The position numbers and the translations under genes were made by a program. From NCBI GenBank assembly GCA_020072765.1, contig JAIQGD010000024.1:1-47793 (forward strand): DNA of 47,793 nt, given 5' to 3'. This document shows positions 20,847 through 23,936 of this stretch, in pieces. The DNA comes from Terriglobia bacterium (lineage in GTDB: Bacteria > Acidobacteriota > Terriglobia > Acidiferrales > UBA7541). Each line of letters opens with the position of its first letter. Positions within the stretch are counted from its first letter, which is position 1. The notes beneath the pieces were generated by a model, which saw nothing but the letters and a program-made list of their open reading frames with translations, made no database searches and was not told where the DNA came from.

Positions 20847-21048
20847 TCGTTTTTCCTCCCCGAAGGAACAGTCTATGTAGATTGACGATCAGAACTCGCG
20901 CCGGCCGCAGCGCCGTGCGCTCGTACGGTCTTCCTGAAGCCCGCTATGCAAACAGATACCGTATATGCAGCGTCGCGGGGTTGTCAAGGCTCCTCTTGCG
21001 CATATCAACCGCTTGGCGTCAATTCGCGCCTCTACCCCGTGCCCGGTG
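20847..21048. other. Left part of the fhs/porin intergenic region
   Basis: This is the first 200 bp of a 780-bp divergent gap and contains the fhs RBS and its probable promoter. I cannot place a confident -35/-10 pair. A reading frame running across the gap (20882-21388) reads through the structured repeat and is not a gene. Confidence 0.4.
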
Positions 21049-21081
21049 CTACCGACGGCGGCCCCTCCAACCGTTCGGTAG
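21049..21081. repeat. Imperfect hairpin, first of three related hairpins around the porin genes
   Basis: CTACCGACGG (21049-21058) pairs with CCGTTCGGTAG (21071-21081), with one bulged T. It resembles the hairpins after porin 1 (22440-22469) and porin 2 (23363-23392), but no porin gene precedes it here. Confidence 0.55.
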
Positions 21082-21115
21082 CCTCCCAGGCGGCCCTGCC
21101 TACTCCACCACCAAG

Positions 21116-21340
21116 TGCCCTCCGATCGTAAGAACTGCCCTCTTGGGCGTTTTGCCGGCCCCGGAGTCAGACAAGCCCCGTGCAACCACAAGCCGCCTAT
21201 GGAGTGCGGCGGCTTGCCGCCCCTTTTCCCAGTCGTGCCCTCCGCCTCGCGGGTGCCACGGCGAAGCAAGCTTCGCCGGGCAGAAGCACAGCCAAACGGT
21301 GCCGCGCCAAAGCGGGGGCCAGCTCCCGCACTCCAAAGAG
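21116..21340 (+). repeat. Multibranched structured repeat, copy A
   Basis: A closing stem GGAGTGCGG (21201-21209)/CCGCACTCC (21326-21334) encloses hairpins GGCGG/CCGCC (21208-21221), GGCGAAGC/GCTTCGCC (21260-21277) and a 7-bp hairpin at 21312-21329. A leader with atcgtaagaact (21125-21136) is shared with copy B at 23441-23655. No protein is encoded. The pattern is that of a folded, mobile-looking intergenic element. Confidence 0.7.
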
Positions 21341-21480
21341 CCCCCCGAATACACCCGTAGTTTTCAGCGCGCCTCTGGAGGACCCTAAAAGTGATGCTCG
21401 CTTAAACAAGCTATGTGCCCATGAAATCAATTAGTTAGCTGCCATGTTGTTGCCATGGAAACAAGTACCAGTACCATCCT

Positions 21481-21508
21481 TTGACTCTGCTACCTATACC
21501 CGGATAAT
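21481..21508 (+). promoter_or_regulatory. Candidate promoter of the tandem beta-barrel genes
   Basis: TTGACT (21481-21486) and GATAAT (21503-21508) are separated by 16 bp. The predicted start near 21515 gives a leader of about 115 nt before the first ATG. This is the best sigma-70-like match in the region. Confidence 0.5.
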
Positions 21509-21628
21509 CAGCCTTACCGCCAGAGCCATTCCGAAGAGCAGCGACGGCAGCAGGACCCCAAGACGCACCGCCTCACTGCTCTGACGACTGCCTCGCCGGG
21601 GACTTTAAATACTGACAAGGAGAATTGA

Positions 21629-22423
21629 ATGAATCGGCTCACACTGAAGATCGGCGCGGTGGCACTGGCCCTGACAGCGGGCCTGTTTGCCCTCGCTCCC
21701 GCAGGCTTGGCGCAGGATAAAGACTGGAAGGGCTTCTACGTCGGCGGCAACGTCGGCGGCGCGTTCGGCAGTTCCGACCCGCGAACCTCCGTCTCGGACC
21801 CAACGTTGAGCTACTACCCTGATTTGATCACGCAAGGCCAGGTAACCACCGCCGGCATCCAGCATCTGGGCCCCAACGGCGTTACCGGTGGCGGCCAGAT
21901 CGGCTACGACTTCCAGCACGGTCATTTCCTCCTGGGAGGCGAGTTCGATTTCGGCGGCATGAGCTTGAACAGTTCCAAGGCCGCTGGCGCTACCTTTACC
22001 GGCTACGCGTTTACGTTCACAGTCACCCAAAGCATGAAGACGAGCTGGCTGATGACCGCACGGCCCCGCGTCGGCTATGCAGGTAAGCGCGTCCTGGTGT
22101 ACGGCACTGGCGGTCTAGCAGCGACCAACCTCAACTACCAGGAAGCCTATGTCGACACCGCTGGACCAGGAGGTGGCGCAACCGAAAACGGTGGCATCAA
22201 GAAGACGCAGACCGGCTTCGCCGCTGGCGGCGGTATCGAGTACAAGATGGGATCGCACTGGTCGCTGAAGGGCGAATACCTCTACGCCAGCTTTGGCAAC
22301 GTCAAGACCACCAGCACGAACCTTACGGGCATCTCACTCGCCACTTTCCCCCTGGCCGTCTTCACTCACGGAGCCAACCTGCACGCCAACATCGCGCGCG
22401 CAGGCATCAACTTCCGCTTCTAA
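21629..22423 (+). CDS. Outer-membrane beta-barrel protein, copy 1
   Basis: The 264-residue product has a clear signal peptide (MNRLTLKIGAVALALTAGLF, then ALAPAGLAQ with cleavage near residue 29). A small OmpA/Omp25-like beta-barrel follows: WKGFYVGGNVGGAFG as strand 1, GGGQIGYDFQHGHFLLGGEFDF, RPRVGYAGKRVLVYGTGGLA, GGGIEYKMGSHWSLKGEYLY, and a final strand ending in Phe (ARAGINFRF). Such barrels act as small porins or surface proteins. A strong RBS (aaggag) precedes the ATG. It is a tandem paralogue of the next gene: membrane strands are nearly identical while loops at about 48-70 and 110-120 differ. Confidence 0.88.
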   Translation: MNRLTLKIGAVALALTAGLFALAPAGLAQDKDWKGFYVGGNVGGAFGSSDPRTSVSDPTLSYYPDLITQGQVTTAGIQHLGPNGVTGGGQIGYDFQHGHFLLGGEFDFGGMSLNSSKAAGATFTGYAFTFTVTQSMKTSWLMTARPRVGYAGKRVLVYGTGGLAATNLNYQEAYVDTAGPGGGATENGGIKKTQTGFAAGGGIEYKMGSHWSLKGEYLYASFGNVKTTSTNLTGISLATFPLAVFTHGANLHANIARAGINFRF

Positions 22424-22439
22424 CCCTTAACCTTGGGCG

Positions 22440-22469
22440 CTATCGGGCGGCCAGACAGCCGCCCGGTAG
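22440..22469 (+). terminator. Hairpin after porin copy 1
   Basis: CTATCGGGCGGC (22440-22451) pairs with GCCGCCCGGTAG (22458-22469), 12 bp with one G-T pair and a 6-nt loop, 16 bp after the stop. No T tract follows, so it may be an mRNA 3'-end stabiliser or processing site rather than a simple terminator. Confidence 0.55.
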
Positions 22470-22551
22470 CCTCTCGGCCATCCCTTAATTGCGTTTCACT
22501 GATCGGACGACTGCATAACTGGCAAGTCTAAATACCTAAAAGGAGAAAGTA

Positions 22552-23346
22552 ATGAATCGACTCATGCTGAAAATCGGCGCGGTGGCCTTGGCCCTGACGG
22601 CAGGCCTGTTTGCCCTCGCTCCGGCAGGCTTGGCGCAAGATAATGACTGGAAGGGCTTTTACGTTGGCGGCAACGTGGGCGGCGCGTTCGGCAGTTCCGA
22701 TGCGATGACCACCATCTCCGACCCGACGAGCATTTATGTGCCAGGCGTAGTCAGTCAAGTGAACAGCTTGGCCCCGCTGCATCCGGACTCCAACGGCATC
22801 ACCGGCGGCGGCCAGATCGGCTACAACTTCCAGCATGGTCATTTCCTGCTTGGCGGTGAGTTTGATTTCGGGAGCTTGAGCCTGAACAAGACCGTCAGCT
22901 CCACGAACATTTGGAACTGCTGCGCCCCCAGCACCTTCGTGCTCACGCAGTCGATGAAGACCAGCTGGCTCGTCACTCTGCGGCCGCGCGTCGGTTATGC
23001 CACCAAACGCGTTCTCGTGTACGGCACCGTCGGCCTGGCCATGACCAACGTGAACTACCAGGCCACTTTTACCGACAACTCCAACGCCTATCCGGAGGTC
23101 GAGAACGGCGGCGTCAACAAGACCCAGAGCGGCTATGCCGCCGGCGGCGGGATCGAGTATAAAATCAGCTCCCGTTGGTCGCTGAAGGGCGAATACCTCT
23201 ATGGCGGGTTTGGCAGCGTCAAGGCCACCAGCAACAATCTCGCCATGCTCCCCCCGGGAGCCGCCACTTTACCCGGCATCACCTTCATCCACATGGCCAA
23301 CCTGCATGCCAACGTCGCGCGCGCAGGCGTCAACTTCCGCTTCTAA
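22552..23346 (+). CDS. Outer-membrane beta-barrel protein, copy 2
   Basis: This 264-residue paralogue of the preceding gene has an almost identical signal peptide and the same barrel strands (WKGFYVGGNVGGAFGSSD, GGGQIGYNFQHGHFLLGGEF, SMKTSWLVTLRPRVGY, GGGIEYKISSRWSLKGEYLY, ARAGVNFRF). The predicted surface loops are quite different; one contains an adjacent Cys pair (NIWNCCAPS) absent from copy 1. The RBS aaaggaga precedes the ATG. Similarity also extends into about 50 bp of upstream DNA, so the duplication included the leader. It may be read from the copy 1 promoter or its own. Confidence 0.88.
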   Translation: MNRLMLKIGAVALALTAGLFALAPAGLAQDNDWKGFYVGGNVGGAFGSSDAMTTISDPTSIYVPGVVSQVNSLAPLHPDSNGITGGGQIGYNFQHGHFLLGGEFDFGSLSLNKTVSSTNIWNCCAPSTFVLTQSMKTSWLVTLRPRVGYATKRVLVYGTVGLAMTNVNYQATFTDNSNAYPEVENGGVNKTQSGYAAGGGIEYKISSRWSLKGEYLYGGFGSVKATSNNLAMLPPGAATLPGITFIHMANLHANVARAGVNFRF

Positions 23347-23362
23347 CTCGTAGCGCCCGGCG

Positions 23363-23392
23363 CTATCGGACGGCCCCAGGGCCGTCCGATAG
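23363..23392 (+). terminator. Perfect 14-bp hairpin after porin copy 2
   Basis: CTATCGGACGGCCC (23363-23376) and GGGCCGTCCGATAG (23379-23392) are perfect inverted repeats with only CA between them. It lies 16 bp after the stop codon, like the hairpin after copy 1. No T tract is present; it may work in both directions or stabilise the 3' end. Confidence 0.6.
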
Positions 23393-23440
23393 TCTCCGAG
23401 CGCCTCTTACCCTTCGCGCACCCCACACCACCCCTAGGCG

Positions 23441-23655
23441 CCCTCCCATCGTCAAGAACTTCCCTGTTTCGGCACGTTGAGTCAGAAGCCTCCGTGCGAG
23501 TGCAAGGTGCGTATGGAGTGCGGCGGCTTGCCGCCGCTTTACCCCCCTCGTGGCAGCCTCCTCGCGGGTGTCCCGGCGAAGCAAGCTTCGCCGGGCGGAG
23601 ACGGAAGAAAATTGTGTCTCATGAAAGCGGGAGCAATCTCCCGCACTCCAAAGAT
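23441..23655 (+). repeat. Multibranched structured repeat, copy B
   Basis: The closing stem GGAGTGCGG (23515-23523)/CCGCACTCC (23641-23649) is identical to copy A. The central hairpin is extended to 11 bp (23572-23582/23585-23595, CCCGGCGAAGC with GCTTCGCCGGG). The third hairpin is GCGGGAG/CTCCCGC (23627-23644). Stem sequences are kept while single-stranded parts differ from copy A, which argues for selection on the fold or a recent common source. Confidence 0.7.
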
Positions 23656-23936
23656 TCTGCGGCATCCGATTCCCGCGCCGGTCTGCGCGTTTGATTCGCT
23701 ACGGCTGAACAAACGATGGAAGGTGGGGACGAAGGAGTTGCCTGGGGCGGTGGGTGGCCTGCTCGTGCCTGCGACTGGTCAAGCGCAATGCCGCGCAGCG
23801 CGAAACAAGCGGTGAAGGAATCGGAAGCGGCGACTCCTGCGCGGACACTGTGCCATCGCGGAGCCGAGCGGCGGGCTCCGGTTGGCCGGAATCCCGCTGC
23901 CCTGCCCCTGAACTTTCCCCGCCGCCCTAGGAGTGG
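23656..23936. other. Intergenic stretch with nothing recognised
   Basis: These 280 bp lie between structured repeat B and the convergent end of aceA. Reading frames here have no RBS and no family resemblance. I see no repeat or strong terminator. Confidence 0.4.

Follow-up and report, generated by a model that had tools for sequence, protein, structure and literature searches.

An apparent REPIN family with GGANT-tagged ends in a Terriglobia genome, and the RAYT clade linked to its REP unit

Two intergenic repeats, copies A and B, lie in the 47,793-nucleotide stretch of Terriglobia DNA that was analysed as a whole (the window). We conclude with considerable confidence that they are non-autonomous REPINs, and that the RAYT encoded at C49:2711-3235 of the same genome is the enzyme most likely to mobilise them in trans. 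REPINs and RAYTs are themselves well known; the REP class to which this REPIN belongs is apparently undescribed. The hairpins of the element are probably conserved as recognition sites of the transposase.

Anatomy of the repeats and their copies in the genome

The first-pass annotation had placed one copy at 21201-21334 and had described a second. Both are present, copy B at 23515-23649. In copy A, GGAGTGCGG occupies 21201-21209 and CCGCACTCC 21326-21334. The full element consists of two 26-nt modules, inverted with their heads outward, around a central palindrome (CGGCGAAGC-AA-GCTTCGCCG), and each module comprises GGAGT, an 8-bp hairpin (GCGGCGGC-TT-GCCGCCGC or GCGGGAGC-AA-GCTCCCGC) and TTT. 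The features are as follows, including two neighbouring genes outside the element.

21201..21334, + strand: REPIN copy A, whole element, an inverted REP pair with heads outward (134 bp)
21201..21226, + strand: copy A REP-1, GGAGT head, hairpin GCGGCGGC-TT-GCCGCCCC (one mismatch), TTT
21259..21278, unstranded: copy A central palindrome CGGCGAAGC-AA-GCTTCGCCG, 9 bp
21309..21334, - strand: copy A REP-2, GGAGT head, hairpin GCGGGAGC-TG-GCCCCCGC (one mismatched pair), TTT
21629..22423, + strand: outer-membrane beta-barrel gene OMP1, neighbour, outside the element
22552..23346, + strand: outer-membrane beta-barrel gene OMP2, tandem duplicate of OMP1, outside the element
23515..23649, + strand: REPIN copy B, whole element
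23515..23540, + strand: copy B REP-1, unit identical to the consensus
23572..23595, unstranded: copy B central palindrome, 11 bp
23624..23649, - strand: copy B REP-2, in which one pair at the apex is lost

For the central hairpin, the earlier lengths were 8 bp (A, 21260-21277) and 11 bp (B, 23572-23595). The value for B stands, and that for A becomes 9 bp (21259-21278); the extra length in B stems from one A/C difference, which recurs among other copies. A 9-bp closing stem had also been described. Its ends, GGAGTGCGG/CCGCACTCC, are indeed present, but they are the outer part of the two inverted modules, and since GCGG/CCGC belongs to the closing stem as well as to the terminal hairpins, these structures are alternatives and not a single multibranch fold. 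The interior of the element, including the central palindrome, is restricted to the window's genome, and other genera of the family share the 26-bp module only. The REP model leaves the central palindrome without explanation.

When the window's genome (3.78 Mb, 152 contigs) was searched with copy A, about 40 dispersed element sites were found, and the exact REP-unit pattern occurred 46 times, compared to 0 for a reversed control pattern. Copy A is 78% identical to copy B and 75-88% identical to its nearest other copies. The family takes several forms: beside full elements (132-135 bp) there are shortened ones (~108 bp), half elements (85-92 bp), lone units of 26 bp and a single compound of 186 bp. 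Units are spaced by 81-83 bp in seven listed pairs and by 56 bp in one short form, with heads outward in all. Based on rough ORF calls, 33 of the 40 sites are intergenic, lying between convergent (16), co-directional (11) or divergent (6) genes. The lean towards convergent pairs is weak (16 versus 6 divergent, P = 0.05), and a similar lean has been reported for REPs (PMC3733652). Chance ORFs run over the REPs at window positions 20889-21269 (-), 23363-23665 (-) and 23477-23815 (+), with translations such as MECGGLPPL and GGKPPHS, and gene callers may report such ORFs as proteins.

The RAYT and its link to GGANT units

One option raised by the first-pass annotation was a transposable non-coding element served by a RAYT/TnpA_REP transposase. 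A search for such an enzyme found one, and this option is now strongly supported, both by the position of the gene and by a clade-wide linkage between unit and RAYT. The genome has two Y1 genes. One of them, P0001 (C49:2711-3235, 174 aa), starts 88 bp past a full copy of the element on the same contig and is the sole match in the genome to NCBIfam NF047646 (REP-associated tyrosine transposase) or REP_Tyr_transpos. Its NF047646 score is 75.9 bits (E 2.9e-21) against a cut-off of 80; a member of the same clade in G026, a sister genus, scores 98.5 bits. P0001 carries the motifs NHYHF (HuH) and YVHDNAV (catalytic Y), and its sequence matches that of the E. coli TnpA_REP structure 4er8. This structure, in which a RAYT binds a REP hairpin, is also the best PDB match of the AlphaFold model of P0001 (E 2.3e-9; mean pLDDT 88.8). 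The second Y1 gene (C65) was rejected as a RAYT: it is IS200-like, scores 19 bits as a RAYT and lies 6 kb from the nearest copy.

The linkage between this REP class and one RAYT clade is exclusive. Scanning the named genomes with three RAYTs yielded 80 loci; the scan relied on two conserved peptides and favours typical members, and a few of the 75 clade rows are near-identical pairs. A head plus stem occurs within 700 bp of 66 of the 75 clade RAYTs, where shuffled flanks lead one to expect 0.14, and of none of 25 other RAYTs of the same acidobacterial family. GTAG/GTGG palindromes, by contrast, are found at 10 of these 25, and GTAG-like palindromes near only three of the 75 clade members. Exact GGAGTGCG has a density of 2.58/kb within 500 bp of a RAYT versus 0.14/kb beyond 1 kb (19x). 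Similarly, a perfect stem (6 bp or longer) comes directly after GGAGT in 134 of 290 cases near a RAYT, compared to 13 of 268 far away. There are 37 different stem sequences after GGAGT near RAYTs, indicating that the palindrome is conserved rather than its sequence. Among stems with one mismatch, G-T outnumbers A-C by 11 to 1 (P = 0.006), implying that the head-carrying strand must fold, either as single-stranded DNA or as RNA.

The unit consensus is sharply bounded (TTT, GGA[G/C/T]T, stem, TTT), with no conservation outside it; in the present REPIN, each TTT-GGANT-hairpin-TTT unit has a hairpin of 8 bp with a loop of 2-3 nt. The fourth base of GGANT is G in 76%, C in 16% and T in 7% of units (n = 124), and the flank consensus is TTTGGANT. 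In a tree that includes the E. coli RAYT as a long branch, 74 clade members fall on one branch (support 98/98), separate from the GTAG RAYTs that the same genomes also carry. By record title the clade spans ~18 phyla; most of its genomes are metagenome bins, so individual phylum assignments may be wrong. Within the acidobacterial family, RAYTs with GTAG or GTGG palindromes on their flanks were seen in G003 (L073), G035 (L184 and L195), G026 (L190) and G045 (L194), and hence two REP classes coexist in one family.

In two sister genera (G055 and G026), RAYT homologues 57-59% identical to P0001 are bounded by inverted GGAGTGCGG...CCGCACTCC ends; in a sister species (G060), the RAYT is disrupted and adjoins units of the GGAGTGCGG/CCGCACTCC type. 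In this sister species, all 12 listed REP pairs have heads inward at a spacing of exactly 25 bp; such pairs lie on C16, C19, C31, C52, C149, C164, C221, C344 and C347 (in part at L067 and L072). Given heads outward at 81-83 bp in the window's genome, the dimer architecture is species-specific and the unit common. Some members of the RAYT clade have a damaged HuH motif. The RAYT at L070 in G055 (1498-2025, -) reads NHYP in place of NHYH, and the units flanking it look intact. Three further genomes (G051, G056 and G045) hold 15-37 units each with no clade RAYT detected, so the linkage is not universal. Genomes of this kind suggest that REP units outlive their transposase, and we assume that the RAYT was lost in these three, as reported for E. 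coli.

RNA folding and the fhs-aceA interval

The first-pass annotation had read A and B as one multibranched, RNA-like fold maintained by compensated change, and had considered a small RNA or an mRNA-end processing module. On that reading, the multibranch fold of a structured small RNA, or of an mRNA-end element acting in cis, would be transcribed and selected as RNA for processing, stabilisation or termination. The folds do beat dinucleotide shuffles on both strands, with z values of -3.0 (A) and -5.9 (B) on the + strand and -3.1 (A) and -4.7 (B) on the - strand, and both the convergent lean of the intergenic sites and the tolerance of G-T mismatches are in line with such a role. However, an alignment of 16 full-length genomic copies revealed no covariation in the closing stem. 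The stem varies at three pairs, each change is pair-breaking, and RNAalifold returns a covariation term of +1.09. The third hairpin, held to change sequence yet keep pairing, lies in a stretch for which RNAalifold predicts almost no pairs. Only two diverged copies (C49, C133) show compensated changes, all of them inside the terminal and central palindromes. Rfam gave no match at gathering scores and nothing credible at permissive thresholds. The covariation term and the Rfam gathering scores thus do not support membership in a structured ncRNA family. Several other observations argue against selection as RNA: the interior is found in one genome only while the ends are shared, the sister species has the same units in the opposite orientation and at another spacing, and copy A separates two divergent genes, with the only promoter-like sites preceding OMP1 located downstream of it. 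An RNA function would also leave the link to the RAYT unexplained, and we consider it unlikely.

In the window, the fhs-aceA gap measures 3 kb and holds copy A, two tandem outer-membrane genes, copy B and the remnant of a DinB-like gene, versus 94 bp to ~1.5 kb in sister species. The remnant (window 23675-23788, +) begins 26 bp past B and is 47% identical to residues 115-152 of a 167-aa sister protein. An intact DinB-like gene lies between fhs and aceA in G003 and G033, with no element there, and the gap in G039 is a bare 94 bp. Sister genomes with both neighbours hold no alignable element between them, and the three intervals that were read directly contain none. For A and B, neither an exact empty site nor an excision product could be seen, as sister species differ too much in their intergenic DNA for it to be aligned.

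The stretches upstream of A and of B match each other (78.7% over 47 bp, 74% over 54 bp), as do the terminator (downstream hairpin) regions of OMP1 and OMP2. Across window positions 21050-23400, the similar downstream hairpins of the genes and the similar upstream stretches of A and B suggest repeated duplication of a unit, perhaps with loss of a third gene. In light of the upstream similarity, A and B may have arrived here partly via duplication of an outer-membrane unit. That they are a mere by-product of the tandem gene duplication, not mobile themselves, is less probable still than an RNA function, given that ~38 further sites lie beside unrelated genes and that the copies on C147, C96 and C123 resemble copy A more closely than copy B does. 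Segmental duplication may explain why A and B lie together, not the family. Least probable of all is a MITE of a conventional DDE transposon with GGAGTGCGG as its terminal inverted repeat: inverted ends, dispersed copies and short and compound derivatives would suit it, but the ends are hairpins with variable stems and no fixed sequence, single units exist, inverted arrangements occur in either orientation, and the ends belong to a clade of Y1 transposases.

Relation to known REP systems and a proposed mechanism

Studies of REPs and RAYTs have dealt mostly with GTAG-tagged elements of Proteobacteria. The REPINs of Pseudomonas fluorescens SBW25 (Bertels & Rainey 2011, PMC3116915) resemble the present element in that they consist of two inverted REPs with conserved ends and a free spacer, have singlets as remnants, are intergenic and are tied to a RAYT. 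Here, however, the tag is GGANT rather than GTAG, the spacing is ~82 bp and a central palindrome fills the spacer; a further point of difference is that excision was not observed for the present element. Elements of the GTAG REP super-family, or REPtrons (PMC3733652, PMC6006769, PMC8266576), likewise have a tag 5' of a short hairpin, a RAYT gene whose flanks carry its own type of REP, and dimers in different orientations. Yet the tag here is TTT-GGANT and the tail TTT, and as the palindrome is preceded by GGANT and not by GTAG/GT[AG]G, we rejected membership in that super-family. The CGTC super-family, defined by a CGTC tag and the lack of a dedicated transposase, was rejected as well: the tag here is not CGTC, and the GGANT units are tied to a RAYT clade.

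The motifs of this clade (NHYHF, W[FH][QN]YW[DE] and YVHxN[PA]V) correspond to none of the rows in the published table of subclasses. The nearest, subclass 2.8 (NHYH, W[YH], YIHYNP), comprises eight sequences from Cyanobacteria with GT[AG]G REPs. The TIRYTs of Acidobacteria are also Y1 transposases between inverted repeats, and one of them forms a repeated family in Koribacter (PMC3733652), but their TIR motif GGGGWSAS is absent here, where the flanks have the consensus TTTGGANT. Most TIRYTs belong to subclass 2.1, with a median of 238 aa (PMC3733652), compared to 174 aa for P0001. The Koribacter family may nevertheless be identical to the present one. Class 3 TnpAY1 of Planctomycetes and Acidobacteria (PMC6006769) resemble our system in the high copy number of atypical secondary structures in Acidobacteria (~600 in Solibacter), and differ in having the foot CnGA and the Y motif YV[VI]xEQ in place of GGANT and YVHxN[PA]V. 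The open-access literature searched contained no description of the TTT-GGANT-hairpin-TTT tag, and a search for the motif as letters returned only unrelated papers. We lean, by a modest degree, towards regarding the GGANT REPs and their RAYT clade as an undescribed third REP class beside GTAG and CGTC. This class would occur in ~18 phyla, use TTT-GGANT-hairpin-TTT for guide and cleavage signals of its own, and differ between species in its dimer architecture.

Known RAYTs bind and cut single-stranded REP hairpins via a tag 5' of the hairpin (PMC8266576), and REPINs are regarded as the mobile unit (PMC3116915). By analogy with TnpA_REP and IS200/IS605, we infer that the present REPIN is mobile and acted on in trans. 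Its GGANT-bearing strand would fold when the DNA becomes single-stranded, for example on the lagging strand. P0001 would then bind the hairpin and the GGANT guide and cut near the flanking TTT, and the excised single strand of the REPIN would be joined at another site.

The REPIN reading accounts for a recurrent repeat of many uncultured genomes, one that causes chance ORFs in automatic gene calls. The RAYT clade covers phyla with little or no REP work, and, with a different and sharply bounded tag and matched elements, it is a natural test case for the way in which the guide chooses the cleavage site.
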